DNA of 64,000 nucleotides. Origin: Actinocorallia populi (GTDB lineage Bacteria > Actinomycetota > Actinomycetes > Streptosporangiales > Streptosporangiaceae). Below the pieces are notes generated by a model. The model did no database searches. It saw nothing but the letters and a program-made list of their open reading frames with translations, and was not told where the DNA came from. The translations under genes and the position numbers were made by a program. This document shows, piece by piece, positions 29,096-60,098 of the stretch. The first letter of the stretch is position 1. Each line of letters opens with the position of its first letter. Location of the stretch: NCBI RefSeq assembly GCF_002995495.1, contig NZ_PVZV01000002.1:186001-250000 (forward strand), given 5' to 3'.

Positions 29096-29878
29096 GTGTT
29101 GAGCCGTAGGAGACTTCTTCAGGTCGCCGCGGCCGCGGCCGCGGCGCCTGCGGCCACGGTGCGGTCCGGGACCGCAGAGGGGGCCGTCGGCACCCTGGTG
29201 CCCGCCTACTTCCATCCGGCGGTCGCTCCCGGGGGCTGGCGCCGCCTGGCGGATCCGGGGCCGCACTCGGTCGTCCTCAACGTCGCCAGCGGTCCCGGTG
29301 AGGTTCCGGACCCGGTCTTCCAGCGGGCCGTCCAGGCCGTCCGAGACGCGGGGGGGACCGTCACGGCCTACGTGGACGTCTCCTACGCCCGCCGCGACCC
29401 CGCTCTGGTGGAGGAGGACCTGCGCCGCTACCGGGCCTGGTACGGGGTGAGCGACGTCTTCTTCGACCAGGCGCCGGCCGCTCCCGACGCGCTGCCCTAC
29501 CTGCGCGCCGTGACCGAGTCGGCCCGCGTCTCAGGCGCCGCCCTCGTCGTGCTCAACCACGGCACCCACCCCGACCCCGGCTATCTCGCCCTGGCCGACG
29601 TCCTCGTCACCTTCGAAGGCCCCGCCTCCGCCTACCTGTCCCTCACCCCGCCCTCCTGGACCCGCGCCCACCCCCGCCACCGCTTCTGCCATCTCGTCCA
29701 CACCTGCCCCTCCGGCACCCTCCTGCGGGTCCTCACCCGGGCGCGGGACCGCGCGGGCCTCCTCTACGTCACCGACCGCTCTCTGCCCAATCCCTACGAC
29801 CGCCTTCCGCCCCACTTCCCCCACCTCCTGCCCTCCGGCGTCCGGTGGGGCGGGTGGTCAGCGGAGGCGGACGGGTAG
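29096..29878 (+). CDS. Tat-exported spherulin-4 family protein (GH135/Sph3-like)
   Basis: 260 aa. A Tat motif SRRRLLQ followed by an Ala-rich hydrophobic stretch marks export. The mature part matches the spherulin-4 (TIM barrel) family: VPAYFHP near the start, VTAYVDVSYARRD, GVSDVFFDQAP, VVLNHGTHP and LADVLVTFEG. Fungal Sph3 (GH135) of this family cuts galactosaminogalactan. The position that I recall as an Asp-Glu pair in Sph3 reads Asp-Gln here (FFDQ), and the later Glu (TFEG) is kept. GTG 29096 is preferred, with GTG 29093 or TTG 29099 possible. It converges with and overlaps the P450 3' end by 21 nt. Role inferred: trimming of the polymer made by the upstream genes. Confidence 0.8.
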   Translation: MLSRRRLLQVAAAAAAAPAATVRSGTAEGAVGTLVPAYFHPAVAPGGWRRLADPGPHSVVLNVASGPGEVPDPVFQRAVQAVRDAGGTVTAYVDVSYARRDPALVEEDLRRYRAWYGVSDVFFDQAPAAPDALPYLRAVTESARVSGAALVVLNHGTHPDPGYLALADVLVTFEGPASAYLSLTPPSWTRAHPRHRFCHLVHTCPSGTLLRVLTRARDRAGLLYVTDRSLPNPYDRLPPHFPHLLPSGVRWGGWSAEADG

Positions 29879-31324
29879 GTGTTCGAAACCGCGGAGCATG
29901 GTGCCGGGAGAACGGTAGGTGGGCGTGGCGGCGGGGCGCAGGCCGGGGAAGCGCTCGAACAGGAGCGGGAAGAGGACCTCGGACTGGAGGCGGGCCAGGG
30001 GAGCGCCCAGGCAGTAGTGGGCGCCCGCGCCGAAGGACAGGGCCGGGGTGGGCGTCCGGGTGATGTCGAAGCGGTCGGGGTCGGAGACGGCGAGGGAGTC
30101 GCGGTTGCCGGAGGCCAGCAGGCCGAAGACGACGCCGTCGCGGGGAATGGGGACACCGGCCAGATGCGTGTCCCGATGGGCGGTGCGGGTGACGAGGTGG
30201 ACGGGGGAGTCGTGGCGCAGGACCTCCTCGGCGGCACGGCGGGCCAGGGACGGGTCGGCGCGGAGCAGGGCGGCCTGCTCCGGGTGGTCCATGAACAGGC
30301 CGGCGCCCAGGCCCACCGCGCTGGCGGGCGAGTCGAACCCCGCGCCGAACAGCATGACGACCGTGCTGAGCGCCTCCCGCAGAACGTCCTCCCGAGCGCC
30401 CTCCCCGGCGGAACGGCCGGTCGCCCGGCCCTCCCCGGCGTGCCGGTCGCCCCTTCCGCCTTCCTCACCGGAACGGCCGGTCGCCTCGTCTCCTCCGGCG
30501 GAGCGGCCGAGTGCCTCGTCTTCCCCATCGGAACGGCCGGCTGCCACGCCTTCCCCGGTGGAGCGGCCGGTCACCTCGTCTTCTCCGGTGGAGCGGTCGG
30601 TCTCCGTGCTCTCCGGGGCGGGGTGGCGGGAGACGAGGCGGGTCAGCAGGTCGTCCTGCGGGGCGCGGAGCCGGTCGGCCAGGAGGGCGCCCAGCAGGTC
30701 GACGATCCGCTCGCCCGCCCGGTGCTGGGACGCGCGCTGCGCGGCGGTGGCCATCGGCTCGAAGACGGTGCTCGCGACGCGGGACAGCCGGGACAGCTCC
30801 AGCGCGAGGCCGTCCGGGACGCCGAGGGCGCGGCCGATGGTCAGTGCGGCGAACGGCAGCGCGAGGGTGTCCATCAGGTCGGTCTCGCGGCCGTCGCGGG
30901 CGATGCCGTCCAGCAGTTGCTCGGCCAGCAGGGTGAGGGACTCGCGGTGGGCCGAGGCGGTGCGGGCGGAGAAGTCGCCGGCGACCAGCCCCCGGTTGGC
31001 CCGGTGGTCGCCGCCGCTGCGGAAGGCCATCGACCGGTAGATGCAGGAGGTGAGCGGCTGCCGCCGCCAGCCCGGCGACAGCAGGTCCAGCCGGGCGTGC
31101 GACAGCGGGCCGAAGTCCCGGTGCCGCAGCAGCAGCGCCACTTCGGCGTGGGCGGCCGCCACCCACGCCTCGCCCAGACCGGGCAGCCGGATGGTGTGGA
31201 CGGGCGCGAGCTCGCGCAGCCGCCGGTAGTCGGGGTACGGGTCGGCCTGGGGGCGGGGCCGGATCAACCGGAGGAAGACGCGTTTGGCCGTGGCCCCCGC
31301 GGGGGCGGGCGCGGTCACCGTCAC
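29858..31324 (-). CDS. Cytochrome P450 with an internal repeat insertion
   Basis: 488 aa. Heme loop FGAGAHYCLGAPLARLQ near the C-terminus, K-helix Glu and Arg in EEVLRHDSP, and I-helix LFGAGFDSPAS with Ser in place of the conserved Thr. Between about residues 243 and 312, just before the I-helix, there is a 70-residue insert of seven 10-aa units of type GRSxGEDExT that no ordinary bacterial P450 has. The GTG start overlaps the hydrolase stop (GTGA). Third gene of a coupled GT1-hydrolase-P450 operon, so it is likely a tailoring oxidase on a glycosylated or lipid-like product. No ferredoxin gene is nearby. Confidence 0.9.
   Translation of the reverse strand: MTVTAPAPAGATAKRVFLRLIRPRPQADPYPDYRRLRELAPVHTIRLPGLGEAWVAAAHAEVALLLRHRDFGPLSHARLDLLSPGWRRQPLTSCIYRSMAFRSGGDHRANRGLVAGDFSARTASAHRESLTLLAEQLLDGIARDGRETDLMDTLALPFAALTIGRALGVPDGLALELSRLSRVASTVFEPMATAAQRASQHRAGERIVDLLGALLADRLRAPQDDLLTRLVSRHPAPESTETDRSTGEDEVTGRSTGEGVAAGRSDGEDEALGRSAGGDEATGRSGEEGGRGDRHAGEGRATGRSAGEGAREDVLREALSTVVMLFGAGFDSPASAVGLGAGLFMDHPEQAALLRADPSLARRAAEEVLRHDSPVHLVTRTAHRDTHLAGVPIPRDGVVFGLLASGNRDSLAVSDPDRFDITRTPTPALSFGAGAHYCLGAPLARLQSEVLFPLLFERFPGLRPAATPTYRSPGTMLRGFEHLPVRLR
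30389..30598 (-). repeat. Coding minisatellite, seven 30-bp units inside the P450 gene
   Basis: Seven in-frame units encode DRSTGEDEVT, GRSTGEGVAA, GRSDGEDEAL, GRSAGGDEAT, GRSGEEGGRG, DRHAGEGRAT and GRSAGEGARE. Period is exactly 30 nt, so copy-number change would keep the frame. The block lies in the surface region before the I-helix, where an insertion can be tolerated. Confidence 0.85.
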
Positions 31325-32160
31325 CGGCAGACCTCCCGAGCGGTCTCCAGCAGGCTCAGCAGCGTCATGACCGTGGCCTCGGGCCGCTCCACGACGGGGC
31401 TGTGCGCGGCGCCCGGCAGCACGACCTCGGTGGCGCCGAGCCGGACGGCCATCTCGTGGTAGGCCTCGTGGCTCCACAACCTCCGGTCGCGGGAGCCGTA
31501 CAGCACCAGCACCGGCACCCCGCTGGCGGCCAGCTCCCCGGTGAGGTCGGGGGTCAGGCGCATGGAGTCGGCGGTGCCCTGCACGTAGGCGTGGTTCATC
31601 GTCTCGAGCTTGTTGCGCCAGAAGCCGGCGGCGAGCTCGTCGCCCTCGGGCAGCAGCCGCTGCACGGTCGGCCACATGCCCATCAGGCCGGTGGTCGCCA
31701 GCATCCCGTCGAGCTTCACCCACATCGCCCGGTGCCGCAGCCCGTGCATGTGCGGGCCGCAGCACACCAGCGACAGGCTGCGGGCGAGCGCGGGCCGGTC
31801 GAGCACGGCGCGGCGGGCGACCAGCCCGCCCATGCAGTGCCCCAGGTAGTGCACCGGCCGCTCGCCGACGAGCTCGACGAGGTCGGCGGCGAGCAGCTCC
31901 AGGGTGTAGTCGTTGTAGGAGTCCAGCCCGGTCGCGCTGAACTGGTCGGTGTAGTCGTAGGCCCAGCAGTCGTACCCGGCGGCGGCCAGCAGCGGCATGA
32001 CCAGCCGGAAGTCCTCCTTGGAGCCGAAGTGCCCGGGGACCATCACCACCGTCTCGCCGCGGTCGCGTCCCGCGGCGGCGGGATGGCGGATCGCCTCGAC
32101 GGTGCCGCGCCGCAGGCGCAGCAGATGTCTTTCGAAGCCCTCGGGGAGCGGAAGGATCAC
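31321..32160 (-). CDS. Alpha/beta hydrolase with Cys nucleophile
   Basis: 279 aa. The oxyanion loop is MVPGHFGSKEDF, the nucleophile elbow is GHCMGG (Cys where most family members have Ser), the acid is in LYGSRDRRLW and the His in PGAAHSPV. A Cys nucleophile is known from a few thioesterases and acyltransferases of the fold, so acyl transfer rather than simple hydrolysis is possible. The GTG start overlaps the glycosyltransferase stop by 4 nt and its stop overlaps the P450 start by 4 nt. No signal peptide. Confidence 0.9.
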   Translation of the reverse strand: MILPLPEGFERHLLRLRRGTVEAIRHPAAAGRDRGETVVMVPGHFGSKEDFRLVMPLLAAAGYDCWAYDYTDQFSATGLDSYNDYTLELLAADLVELVGERPVHYLGHCMGGLVARRAVLDRPALARSLSLVCCGPHMHGLRHRAMWVKLDGMLATTGLMGMWPTVQRLLPEGDELAAGFWRNKLETMNHAYVQGTADSMRLTPDLTGELAASGVPVLVLYGSRDRRLWSHEAYHEMAVRLGATEVVLPGAAHSPVVERPEATVMTLLSLLETAREVCR

Positions 32161-33476
32161 AACTTCACCATCGTTTCCGGTGATTCGGGGAATTCGGGAA
32201 AATCAGCTGACCCTGCGGGCATCCCGGGCAGGACGCCCTGCACGGGCCCGGTGGACGCGCCGAGCAGCCGCAGCGCCTGGCCGGTGCCGTCCTCGGCCCG
32301 CACCCGCCGCCCCAGCTCCTCGGCCCGGTAGGTCAGCTGCAGGTCGTTCAGCACGGCGTCGAGGGCGGGCACCAGGCCGCGCACCGACAGCTCGCGCAGG
32401 CTCGGCGCGGCGGCCGCCACCTTCAGGTGCCGCATCCGGCGCCCCCAGAACGGCTGGTCGAGCCCGGCAGGGCAGATGACCTGCGGCACACCCGCCGCGG
32501 CGGCCGCGCCCGTGGTGCCCGCGCCGCCGTGGTGCACCACCCCGGCGCACCGGGGGAACAACCAGTCGTGCGGGACGTGCCGCACCAGGTGCACCCGGTC
32601 GGAGTTGACGACACCGCGCAGCCCCCGGTACCCGCCCGCCAGCAGCACCCGTCCGCCGGCCTCGGCCGCGGCCTCGACGATGATGCGGGCCAGCCGCTGC
32701 GGCTCGGGCAGCGGCATGCTGCCGAACCCCACGTACACCGGGGGCTCGCCCGCCTCCAGGAACTCCCGGAGCCGCCGCCCCGGGGTGAAGGGCGCCTCGG
32801 GCAGCCGCCAGTAGCCGGTGAGGTGCGCGGCGGCGGGCCAGTCGGACGGCCGGGGCAGCACCTGCGGGCTGATCGCGTGCAGCACCGTCGCCGGCTCCCC
32901 GTCCGGGCGCACCAGAGGGTCGCGCCAGCCGGACCGCCTGCGCAGGCCCAGCGTGTGGTGCCGCCAGTGGTCGAGCTCCTGCGCCCAGGACCGCAGGAAC
33001 ACCCGGCGCGCGACGGAGTAGGAGGCGCGGGGGAAGGGCAGGCGCATCCCCCACGCCGGGGAGCTGAAGGCGCGGGTGGGCAGGATCGTGGGGATGGGGG
33101 CCGCGACCACCGACGGCACGCCCGCCCAGTCGGCGAGGTGGTGGCCCAGGGGGAGCATCGGATGGTGGACGACGACGTCGAAGTCGCCTTCGGCCGCCCG
33201 CACCACGCTCTCCAGCGCCGCCGGGGCCAGCGCGCCCAGCGCCTGCGCGAACCGCAGGAACTGCCGCACCCCGAACGCCCCCTCCAGCGCGTCGGAGACG
33301 CGCAGCATGTCCAGCTCCAGTGGGGCGAACGGGACGTGGTGCGTCTCGGCCAGTTTCTGGAACAGCAGGGGCGCGGCCAGCAGCGGCTGGTGCCCCTCCC
33401 GGCGCAGCCTCTCGGCCAGCGCGACGAACGGCAGCACGTCCCCTTGCGACCCGACGGTCAGCAACAGCACTCTCAT
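32157..33476 (-). CDS. GT1-family glycosyltransferase (sterol/natural-product UGT type)
   Basis: 439 aa. MRVLLLTVGSQGDVLPFVALAERLRREGH is the typical N-terminus of GT1 UGTs; the sugar-nucleotide site is GVVHHGGAGTTGAAAAAGVPQVICP with LDQPFWGRRM following. The closest familiar relatives are sterol 3-beta-glucosyltransferase-like and MGT-like bacterial enzymes, so a lipophilic acceptor is plausible. The ATG at 33476 is preferred to an upstream start at 33590 because the extra N-terminus is not part of the fold and a GGGGGA lies upstream of 33476. First gene of the three-gene operon. Confidence 0.92.
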   Translation of the reverse strand: MRVLLLTVGSQGDVLPFVALAERLRREGHQPLLAAPLLFQKLAETHHVPFAPLELDMLRVSDALEGAFGVRQFLRFAQALGALAPAALESVVRAAEGDFDVVVHHPMLPLGHHLADWAGVPSVVAAPIPTILPTRAFSSPAWGMRLPFPRASYSVARRVFLRSWAQELDHWRHHTLGLRRRSGWRDPLVRPDGEPATVLHAISPQVLPRPSDWPAAAHLTGYWRLPEAPFTPGRRLREFLEAGEPPVYVGFGSMPLPEPQRLARIIVEAAAEAGGRVLLAGGYRGLRGVVNSDRVHLVRHVPHDWLFPRCAGVVHHGGAGTTGAAAAAGVPQVICPAGLDQPFWGRRMRHLKVAAAAPSLRELSVRGLVPALDAVLNDLQLTYRAEELGRRVRAEDGTGQALRLLGASTGPVQGVLPGMPAGSADFPEFPESPETMVKL

Positions 33477-48538: not shown

Positions 48539-50533
48539 GTGAGCGAATCCAGCGAACTGCTGAACGAAGCGACGGGCGAAAAGCCCGCGCCGAAGCGCGC
48601 CCGCCGGGGCACCGGACTGTCGGCCATGGTGCTCCCCGAGCTGAAGACCCTCGCCTCCCAGCTGGGCATCAGCGGCACCACGGGGATGCGCAAGAGCCAG
48701 CTCATCGCTGCCATTCAGGAGAAGCAGGGCGGCGCGGCCGCGGGCGCGCAGGGGGCCGCCGCCAAGGCCGAGGCCAAGCCCGAGAGCGCCGCCAGGACCA
48801 CGGCCAGGACCCCGGCGAAGGCCGCCGAGGCCAAGGCGGAGAGCAAGCCCGAGAACAAGGCCGAGGCCCCGGCCGCCGAGAAGGCGGACAAGGCCGAGAA
48901 GCCCGCCGAGCAGGCTCCCGAGCAGCCGGCCAGGGCGGAGCGTCCCGAGCGCACCCGGCGCGGCCGCGCCGCGCAGCGCGAGGAGGCCGCCGAGGAGCAG
49001 GCCGAGAGTCGGCCCGCGGCGGAGAAGCCCGCCGAGGAGCAGCAGAGCGAGGGCGGTGGCGGCCAGCAGCGCGAGGGCCGCCAGCGCAGCCGCAACGGCC
49101 GTGAGCGCGGCGACCGCCAGCGGGACCGCGGCGAGCGTGGCGACCGCGGTGACCGCGGCGAGCGCGGGGACCGGGGTGACCGCGGCGGCCAGAACGAGCG
49201 CGGTGACCGCGGCGACCGTGGTGACCGCGGCGACCGTGGTGACCGCGGCCAGCAGGGCGACCGCGGTGACCGCGGCGGCCAGCAGGGCGGCGAGCACGAC
49301 GACGAGCGCGGTGGCCGCAGGGGCCGCCGGTTCCGTGAGCGCAACCGGGGCCGGGGCACCGGCCGCGAGCGCTACGAGGCCGAGCCGGTCGTCTCCGACG
49401 ACGACGTGCTGATCCCGGTCGCCGGCATCCTCGACATCCTCGACAACTACGCGTTCGTGCGCACCACCGGCTACCTGCCGGGCCCCAACGACGTGTACGT
49501 CTCGCTGGCCCAGGTCCGCAAGAACGGCCTGCGCAAGGGCGACGTGATCACCGGCGCGGTCCGCCAGGCCCGCGAGGGAGAGCGGCGCGAGAAGTTCAAC
49601 GCGCTGGTCCGCCTCGACACCGTCAACGGCATGGAGCCCGACCAGGCCCGCGGCCGGGTGGAGTTCTCCAAGCTCACCCCGCTGTACCCGCAGGAGCGGC
49701 TGCGCCTGGAGACCGACCCGGGCATCCTGACCACCCGGATCATCGACCTGGTCAGCCCGATCGGCAAGGGCCAGCGCGGCCTGATCGTCTCGCCGCCCAA
49801 GGCCGGCAAGACGATGGTGATGCAGTCGATCGCCAACGCGATCACCAAGAACAACCCCGAGTGCCACCTGATGGTCGTGCTGGTGGACGAGCGGCCCGAA
49901 GAGGTCACCGACATGCAGCGGTCGGTCAAGGGCGAGGTCATCCACTCGACCTTCGACCGTCCCGCCGAGGACCACACCACCGTCGCCGAGCTCGCCATCG
50001 AGCGCGCCAAGCGGCTGGTGGAGCTGGGCCACGACGTGGTCGTGCTGCTGGACTCCATCACCCGGCTGGGCCGCGCCTACAACCTGGCGGCCCCCGCCTC
50101 GGGCCGCATCCTGTCCGGTGGTGTGGACTCCACCGCGCTGTACCCGCCCAAGCGGTTCTTCGGCGCGGCCCGCAACATCGAGAACGGCGGCTCGCTGACC
50201 ATCCTGGCCACCGCGCTGGTGGAGACCGGCTCGCGGATGGACGAGGTGATCTTCGAGGAGTTCAAGGGCACCGGCAACATGGAGCTCAAGCTCAGCCGCC
50301 AGCTCGCCGACAAGCGCATCTTCCCCGCGGTGGACGTGGACGCCTCCAGCACCCGCAAGGAGGAGATCCTCATGGCCCCCGAGGAGCTGCGGGTGGTCTG
50401 GTCGCTGCGCCGGGTGCTGCACGCCCTCGACACCCAGCAGGCCCTCGAGCTGCTGCTGGAGAAGATGAAGGAGACCAAGTCGAACGCGGAGTTCCTGCTC
50501 CAGGTCCAGAAGACCACCGTCGCGCACGACTGA
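48539..50533 (+). CDS. rho: Transcription termination factor Rho with long Arg/Gly/Asp-rich insert
   Basis: 664 aa. Rho_N domain (MVLPELKTLASQLGISGTTGMRKSQLIAAIQ, about 22-60), then an extended insert of about 220 aa, first Ala/Glu/Lys-rich and then Arg/Gly/Asp-rich, then the primary RNA-binding domain (GILDILDNYAFVRTTGYLPGPNDVYVS), and the ATPase with Walker A SPPKAGKT, Walker B MVVLVDERPEEV and VVVLLDSITRLGRAYN. Such inserts are typical of actinobacterial Rho and bind RNA. GTG with GGGAAGGA upstream. Confidence 0.97.
   Translation: MSESSELLNEATGEKPAPKRARRGTGLSAMVLPELKTLASQLGISGTTGMRKSQLIAAIQEKQGGAAAGAQGAAAKAEAKPESAARTTARTPAKAAEAKAESKPENKAEAPAAEKADKAEKPAEQAPEQPARAERPERTRRGRAAQREEAAEEQAESRPAAEKPAEEQQSEGGGGQQREGRQRSRNGRERGDRQRDRGERGDRGDRGERGDRGDRGGQNERGDRGDRGDRGDRGDRGQQGDRGDRGGQQGGEHDDERGGRRGRRFRERNRGRGTGRERYEAEPVVSDDDVLIPVAGILDILDNYAFVRTTGYLPGPNDVYVSLAQVRKNGLRKGDVITGAVRQAREGERREKFNALVRLDTVNGMEPDQARGRVEFSKLTPLYPQERLRLETDPGILTTRIIDLVSPIGKGQRGLIVSPPKAGKTMVMQSIANAITKNNPECHLMVVLVDERPEEVTDMQRSVKGEVIHSTFDRPAEDHTTVAELAIERAKRLVELGHDVVVLLDSITRLGRAYNLAAPASGRILSGGVDSTALYPPKRFFGAARNIENGGSLTILATALVETGSRMDEVIFEEFKGTGNMELKLSRQLADKRIFPAVDVDASSTRKEEILMAPEELRVVWSLRRVLHALDTQQALELLLEKMKETKSNAEFLLQVQKTTVAHD
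49108..49290 (+). repeat. Nine-nucleotide repeats encoding RGD units in rho
   Basis: Many copies of CGCGGCGAC/CGCGGTGAC in frame give repeated Arg-Gly-Asp. The array is prone to slippage but any whole-unit change keeps frame. It encodes the intrinsically disordered RNA-binding insert. Confidence 0.75.
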
Positions 50534-58054: not shown

Positions 58055-58060
58055 TATCGT
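58055..58060 (+). promoter_or_regulatory. -10 box of leaderless kinase 5
   Basis: TATCGT ends 7 bases before the GTG at 58068; no SD. Confidence 0.5.
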
Positions 58061-58067
58061 GCCGCGG

Positions 58068-60098
58068 GTGGCCGAGAACGCGGAGCACACGGGGAACAAG
58101 GCGGATGATCTGGTCGCCGGGCGCTACCGGCTGCTGTCGGTGGTGGGGGTCGGCGGCATGGGGCGGGTGTGGCGGGCCCTGGACGAGCGGCTGGATCGCG
58201 AGGTGGCGGTCAAGGAGGTGCTGCTGCCGTCCGGGGTGCGGGGCGAGGAGCGCGAGCGGCTCAACCGCAGGGCGGTCCGGGAGGGCCGCTCGGCCGCCAG
58301 GCTCAGCCATCCGGGCATCATCACGATGCACGACATCGTCATCCACCGGGACGCGCCGTTCCTGGTCATGGAGTACCTGCCCGGCCGCTCCCTGGCCGAG
58401 GCCGTCGGGCTGGACGGGCCGCTGCCGCCGCACCGGGCCGCGCGGGTCGGCCGGGTCGTGGCCGAGGCGCTGCTCGTCGCGCACGGCGCGGGCATCGTCC
58501 ACCGCGACCTGAAGCCGCAGAACGTGCTGCTGCACGGGGAGCGGGTGGTCATCACCGACTTCGGCATCGCCCACCTGGTCGGCGACGCCACGCTGACCGC
58601 GGCCGGGGCGATCATGGGCACCCCCGCCTACATGGCGCCCGAGCAGGCCGAGACCGCCGAGGTGAGCCCGGCCGCCGACGTGTGGTCGCTGGGGGCGACC
58701 CTCTACTCCGCGGTCGAGGGCAGGCCGCCCTTCCCCGGCGCCACCTACGTGGAGGCGCTCACCGCGCTCATCACCGGCGGGCCGAGACCTCCGCGCACCA
58801 CCGGGCCGCTCATCGACCTGGTGATGCGGATCCTGCGCAGGGACCCGGCGGAGCGTCCGGGCCTGTCCGAGCTCGTCCCGCTGCTGGAACGGCTGGAGGA
58901 GCCGGCCGCGGAGCCGCCCGCCGTCCGGGCGGCCCCCGCCCCGCCTCCCGCCCCCGCCGAGCCGGCCCAGGTCTGGACGCCGCCGAGCGGGGGAGCGGTG
59001 CCTCCTCAGGCCGTCTCCACGGAGGCCGCGGCGCCCCCCACGCCGCCCTCGCAGGACTCCCAGGCGGCGTCTGCCCGGCTTCCGGCGCCGGCACGGCCCC
59101 GCATGTGGAGCCGCAGGGACCTCGGCGTCCTCGCCGGGCTGGCCGTGCTGAGCGCGGCGCTCCCCGCCGGGGTGAACCTCGCCCGCGGCGACGGGGGAGG
59201 GGGGCCCGCGCCGAAGCCCCCGGCGGGGGCGCCGCTCTCCCAGGGGCTGAGCGGCGCGGTGCGGGCGCTGGCCTTCGCGGGGGAGGGGACGGTCCTGGCG
59301 ACCGGCAGCGACGGGGACCCGGTGCGGTTGTGGGATCCGGTGCGGCAGGCGGAGACCGGCCGCCTGGAGGGCCCCTCCCCGGTCACCACCCTCGCCTTCG
59401 GGCCCGGCGGCACGCTGCTGGCGGCGGGAGGGGGGGACAGCACGGTCTGGCTCTGGGAGACGGCGTCACGCAGCCGGATCGCGGTGCTGGACGGGCATGA
59501 GGCCGCCGTACGGGCGGTGGCGTTCGCCCCCGACGGGAGACTCCTCGCCTCGGCCGGGGACGACGACGTCGTCCGGCTCTGGGACACCGCGACCCGCCGG
59601 CAGGTGGCCGAACTCGAAGGCCACGACGACGACGTGTGGTCGCTGGCCTTCAGCCCCGACGGACGGACGCTCGCCAGCGGCGGCTGGGACGAGGCCGTGC
59701 GGCTGTGGGACGTGGCGGAGCGCGAGGAGCGGGCCAGGCTGGACGGCCACCGCGCGGTCGTGACGGCGGTGGCCTTCGCCCCGGACGGCCGGACCCTGGC
59801 CAGCGGGAGCCAGGACCACACGGTCCGGATCTGGGACGTGGCGGAGCGCGAGGAGCGGCACGTGCGCAAGGAGCACCGCGACTACGTCTCGGCGGTGGCC
59901 TTCGCCCCGGACGGCCGGACGCTGGTGAGCGCCGGCTGGGACGGCGCCGTGCGGCTGTGGGACACCGAGGGCTACGGGGAGAGGTCCGTCCTGCGGATGC
60001 GCGCCGGCGGCGATCACGTGCTGTCCCTGGCTTCGGCCGGCCGGTACCTGGCGATGGGCGGGCAGAGCCGGCTGGTGAGGGTGTACTCCCTCGGCTGA
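58068..60098 (+). CDS. Membrane Ser/Thr protein kinase with seven WD40 repeats (kinase 5)
   Basis: 676 aa. Kinase domain (VGVGGMGRVW, EVAVKEV, VHRDLKPQNV, TDFGIAHL, MAPEQAE), a Pro/Ala-rich linker, a TM segment at about 350-372, then seven WD40 blades (VRLWDP, VWLWET, VRLWDT, VRLWDV, VRIWDV, VRLWDT, VRVYSL) forming an extracellular beta-propeller. The propeller probably binds a protein or wall ligand. GTG at 58068 from the -10 position; the frame start at 58059 overlaps the -10 box. Secreted paralogues flank it on both sides. Confidence 0.95.
   Translation: MAENAEHTGNKADDLVAGRYRLLSVVGVGGMGRVWRALDERLDREVAVKEVLLPSGVRGEERERLNRRAVREGRSAARLSHPGIITMHDIVIHRDAPFLVMEYLPGRSLAEAVGLDGPLPPHRAARVGRVVAEALLVAHGAGIVHRDLKPQNVLLHGERVVITDFGIAHLVGDATLTAAGAIMGTPAYMAPEQAETAEVSPAADVWSLGATLYSAVEGRPPFPGATYVEALTALITGGPRPPRTTGPLIDLVMRILRRDPAERPGLSELVPLLERLEEPAAEPPAVRAAPAPPPAPAEPAQVWTPPSGGAVPPQAVSTEAAAPPTPPSQDSQAASARLPAPARPRMWSRRDLGVLAGLAVLSAALPAGVNLARGDGGGGPAPKPPAGAPLSQGLSGAVRALAFAGEGTVLATGSDGDPVRLWDPVRQAETGRLEGPSPVTTLAFGPGGTLLAAGGGDSTVWLWETASRSRIAVLDGHEAAVRAVAFAPDGRLLASAGDDDVVRLWDTATRRQVAELEGHDDDVWSLAFSPDGRTLASGGWDEAVRLWDVAEREERARLDGHRAVVTAVAFAPDGRTLASGSQDHTVRIWDVAEREERHVRKEHRDYVSAVAFAPDGRTLVSAGWDGAVRLWDTEGYGERSVLRMRAGGDHVLSLASAGRYLAMGGQSRLVRVYSLG

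Follow-up and report, generated by a model that had tools for sequence, protein, structure and literature searches.

A degenerate, in-frame 30-nt repeat array in the H-I loop of a cytochrome P450 from Actinocorallia populi

Introduction

Why should a cytochrome P450 gene carry seven tandem 30-nt units within its coding sequence: does the array serve the enzyme, does it vary in length between strains, or is it only tolerated? We addressed this question for a gene of Actinocorallia populi that lies in a 64,000-nt stretch of DNA (contig NZ_PVZV01000002.1, positions 186,001 to 250,000; hereafter the window). A preliminary description, made from the sequence alone, had portrayed the array as a run of exact repeats whose number could change without frameshift, and whose product might form a flexible loop or bind a redox partner.

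Results

The features of the locus that are needed for the argument are the following, in window coordinates.

29858..31324, minus strand: cytochrome P450 gene, 488 aa, GTG start (open reading frame; Pfam PF00067, E 1.4e-13; motifs; PDB fold match)
30389..30598, minus strand: seven degenerate 30-nt units, residues 243-312, in the H-I loop; consensus about GRSxGEDExx (TRF, unit alignment)
30389..30418, minus strand: last unit, GRSAGEGARE, whose end is the start of helix I (residues 306-346 in the model)
31321..32160, minus strand: alpha/beta hydrolase (Pfam PF12697, E 3.9e-19); its stop overlaps the P450 GTG start by 4 bases
32157..33476, minus strand: glycosyltransferase with an EryCIII-like C-terminal domain (Pfam PF06722, E 2.2e-15); its stop overlaps the hydrolase start by 4 bases

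The identity of the host gene as a P450 was borne out by the Pfam profile (PF00067, 50.9 bits against a gathering score of 22.8), the heme-ligand cysteine, the ExxR motif and the predicted fold. The heme-thiolate motif FxxGxxxCxG is present as FGAGAHYCLG. Its C438 is invariant in the alignment with relatives, as are E367 and R370 of the helix K motif (EEVLR) and the helix C pair H107/R111. P450-type homology flanks the array on both sides in the same frame, and the reading frame contains no stops or frameshifts, with the catalytic motifs all intact. Helix I carries AGFDSP in place of the usual AGFETT; since Asp-Ser replaces the usual Glu/Asp-Thr, the acid-alcohol pair remains. The Ser of this motif (30326-30343), standing for the usual Thr, resembles the A245S variant of P450eryF. 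Judged from these features and the model described below, the gene probably encodes a catalytically intact, soluble bacterial P450. Soluble P450s of the CYP107 kind, such as P450eryF (CYP107A1; 1jip/1oxa) and CYP107P2 (8yhn), match it in fold, heme-Cys motif and ExxR, and similarity to them extends over both sides of the array. They differ from it in the helix I motif, their identity to it is about 23-29% in structural alignments, and an array of this kind is absent from the relatives that we compared.

Inspection of the translation showed that the array consists of seven consecutive 30-nt units, ungapped and in frame, across which the reading frame stays open for all 210 nt. The units read, in order, DRSTGEDEVT, GRSTGEGVAA, GRSDGEDEAL, GRSAGGDEAT, GRSGEEGGRG, DRHAGEGRAT and GRSAGEGARE. 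The extent, unit length and in-frame position given in the preliminary description were thus correct, but its units are not exact. No two are identical: pairwise nucleotide identity ranges from 53 to 87% with a mean of 66%, units 1 and 4 being 87% identical, and amino-acid identity averages 49%; TRF reports 67% matches. Of the proposed GRSxGEDExT-like motif, only the first half is well kept, and the unit is better written as about GRS-x-G-E-(D/G)-x-x-x. The RS-x-G core is present in five of the seven units. The periodicity is nevertheless beyond chance, as the observed mean identity of 0.656 exceeds that of all 20,000 codon shuffles (shuffle mean 0.379, maximum 0.470), and it is the strongest period-30 signal in the window.

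Could such a region be an assembly artefact, or part of a decaying pseudogene? It is of low complexity, and codon bias is lower in the array. However, the units all differ, which makes a simple duplication or collapse of reads unlikely, and a pseudogene is hard to reconcile with an undisrupted frame and a full set of catalytic motifs. We regard either origin as highly improbable.

To place the array in the fold, the structure was predicted with AlphaFold from a 30-sequence alignment, and the model was compared with the PDB by Foldseek. The model has a pTM of 0.83, with a P450 core mostly above pLDDT 90, and it matched solved P450s with target TM-scores of up to 0.92. The array is flanked by helix H (226-232) on one side and by helix I (306-346) on the other. 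Its location just before helix I, as first described, is confirmed by the last unit, the end of which opens that helix. The pLDDT is below 50 throughout residues 242-300; helix I is intact from residue 306. The array is made up of 79% disorder-promoting and 4% hydrophobic residues, with a net charge of −7 (17 acidic, 10 basic). The product is thus predicted to be a 70-residue, Gly-rich, mildly acidic and disordered surface loop, in keeping with the flexible loop suggested earlier. The surface position between helices H and I and a fold left intact would explain why it is tolerated.

We then compared the H-I segment, measured from DDLL to AGFETT, among P450s. It spans 110 residues in this protein and 40 without the units. 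The corresponding length is 23-42 residues in 106 relatives and 35-55 in 28 further P450s, 19 of which are paralogues of the same genome; over all 134 proteins it is 23-55, mostly 35-38. None of the 134 carries a comparable insert, in agreement with the early impression that P450s seldom do. A literature search likewise turned up no repeat insert of this sort in a P450, which is weak evidence as most subscription papers lay outside the search. Because the segment without its units falls within the normal range, the array is an addition to a complete enzyme. In one paralogue (L180) this segment is not repetitive and, at 55 residues, exceeds the usual length by about 18, which shows that the length of this loop can vary.

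The units were next examined for signs of constraint. Between units, dN/dS is 0.78 with a bootstrap interval of 0.27-2.2, and identity is lowest at codon position 2. GC3 is 0.77 in the array, against 0.96 in the remainder of the gene. These values fit relaxed constraint, although the dN/dS interval includes strong constraint and some may be present; the frame open over 210 nt and the RS-x-G core in five units would allow for it at the protein level. For new repeat copies, strongly relaxed purifying selection has been reported as a general pattern (Persi et al., PMC5120217).

Whether the genome holds related arrays was also investigated. No second copy of the array was found in the genome, and its peptide is unique there. 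The unit has other, short matches of 17 to about 70 bases; the sequence around those that were read is unrelated and showed no array. An origin of the unit from a mobile or multi-copy element was therefore rejected. Sampling of the genome in 20 stretches, with a count of tandem arrays across 464 kb, gave 94 of 117 arrays with a period divisible by three. Such arrays are thus commonplace in this genome, and that of the P450 is one of many. The excess presumably arises because codon structure favours these periods and other periods break genes. Within the window, a degenerate 18/27/45/63-nt array of RGD-type repeats (49106-49277) lies inside the gene for transcription terminator Rho (48539-50533, plus strand), and in a gene for a protein kinase-WD40 fusion (58059-60098, plus strand) the WD40 repeats are encoded by a 126-nt tandem array (59644-59963). 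Further long degenerate arrays, with periods of 60 and 65 nt and 68-78% matches, occur elsewhere in the genome (L155:16439-16771 and L149:4342-4639); that of L149, with a period not divisible by three, may be intergenic.

The P450 gene is, from its sequence context, the last of a three-gene glycosyltransferase-hydrolase-P450 operon, which probably tailors a small molecule. Searches for an orthologue of the P450 gave none in two congeners at 1e-100 and none in 120 family genomes at 1e-45, and samples of the order and class held no relative closer than about 40%. The best match among about 85,000 species representatives was about 40% identical; these searches used pattern or first-look filters on one genome per species, by which close strains may be missed. 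Seeking the operon through its hydrolase and its glycosyltransferase yielded no orthologous operon either, the glycosyltransferase relatives in family genomes being 40-48% identical. In one congener the flanks are syntenic, with 55-79% identity from a spherulin-4-like gene to sugar-nucleotide genes and 76% for a metallo-hydrolase, and an unrelated reading frame (L143:7573-9711) replaces the operon (window 29858-33476). Whether the operon is present at this locus thus differs within the genus. The replacing frame has a weak NACHT match, under the Pfam cut-off.

Discussion

On the basis of these results, we consider it likely, at a probability of roughly three in four, that the array is an old minisatellite expansion, specific to its lineage and tolerated by an intact P450 that carries it in a surface loop, and that it is a neutral side product of the growth of DNA repeats. 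A 30-nt minisatellite would have grown in the H-I loop by tandem duplication, perhaps through slippage or unequal recombination, with units of ten codons keeping the frame open. The copies would then have diverged, almost freely as far as can be measured, and the resulting disordered loop would have been tolerated by the enzyme. The loop probably has no dedicated function.

An active minisatellite that varies in length and tunes the enzyme between strains is an improbable alternative. The 30-nt period preserves the frame and units 1 and 4 remain close to each other, but diverged repeats rarely slip or recombine, and at the mean identity seen here slippage in the present day is disfavoured. The picture of a young, length-variable repeat, which goes with exact units, is not supported. 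Some support for this alternative comes from another actinobacterium, Mycobacterium tuberculosis, in which in-frame variants of intragenic tandem repeats have been described (PMC12817950). The VNTRs of that organism share with our array tandem units divisible by three within coding sequence; they vary between strains, whereas the array described here was read from one genome, has strongly diverged units and sits in a P450 (PMC12817950).

It is likewise unlikely, if marginally less so, that the disordered loop functions by binding some other protein, be it a redox partner or the glycosyltransferase encoded next to the P450. Its net negative charge and recurring core motif could serve such binding; the weak constraint on the units speaks against it. 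For a redox partner in particular, many ferredoxins are acidic and would not be favoured by an acidic loop, the H-I loop presumably lies away from the proximal face of the enzyme, and no ferredoxin or other redox gene was present among the neighbours checked. The proximal face is where redox partners of P450s dock (PMC10416055). Binding of a redox partner, as first suggested, is thus unlikely on general grounds.

The case for the glycosyltransferase as partner draws on P450-like activators of glycosyltransferases (TIGR04515; the EryCII/DesVIII kind). This family is the best full-length NCBIfam match of our P450 (4.5e-42), which also shares its operon with a glycosyltransferase. However, the score of 144.8 bits falls far below the curated cut-off of 343, which counts against partner binding of this type as well. 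Activators of this kind lack the heme-ligand cysteine, and the retained Cys438 argues against membership. That the loop is a selected docking arm which recruits the P450 to a partner from its operon, such as the glycosyltransferase, with the number of repeats setting affinity, so that a minisatellite would tune the enzyme, we hold to be very improbable.

The tolerated expansion that we favour shows what size of insertion may be accommodated in the H-I loop of a P450 with the core still predicted to fold, which would be useful to anyone placing tags or domains at this site. Should the loop prove functional, the protein would be an unusual, repeat-tuned enzyme. At present it is mostly an example of the in-frame minisatellites that decorate the proteins of a high-GC actinobacterium.
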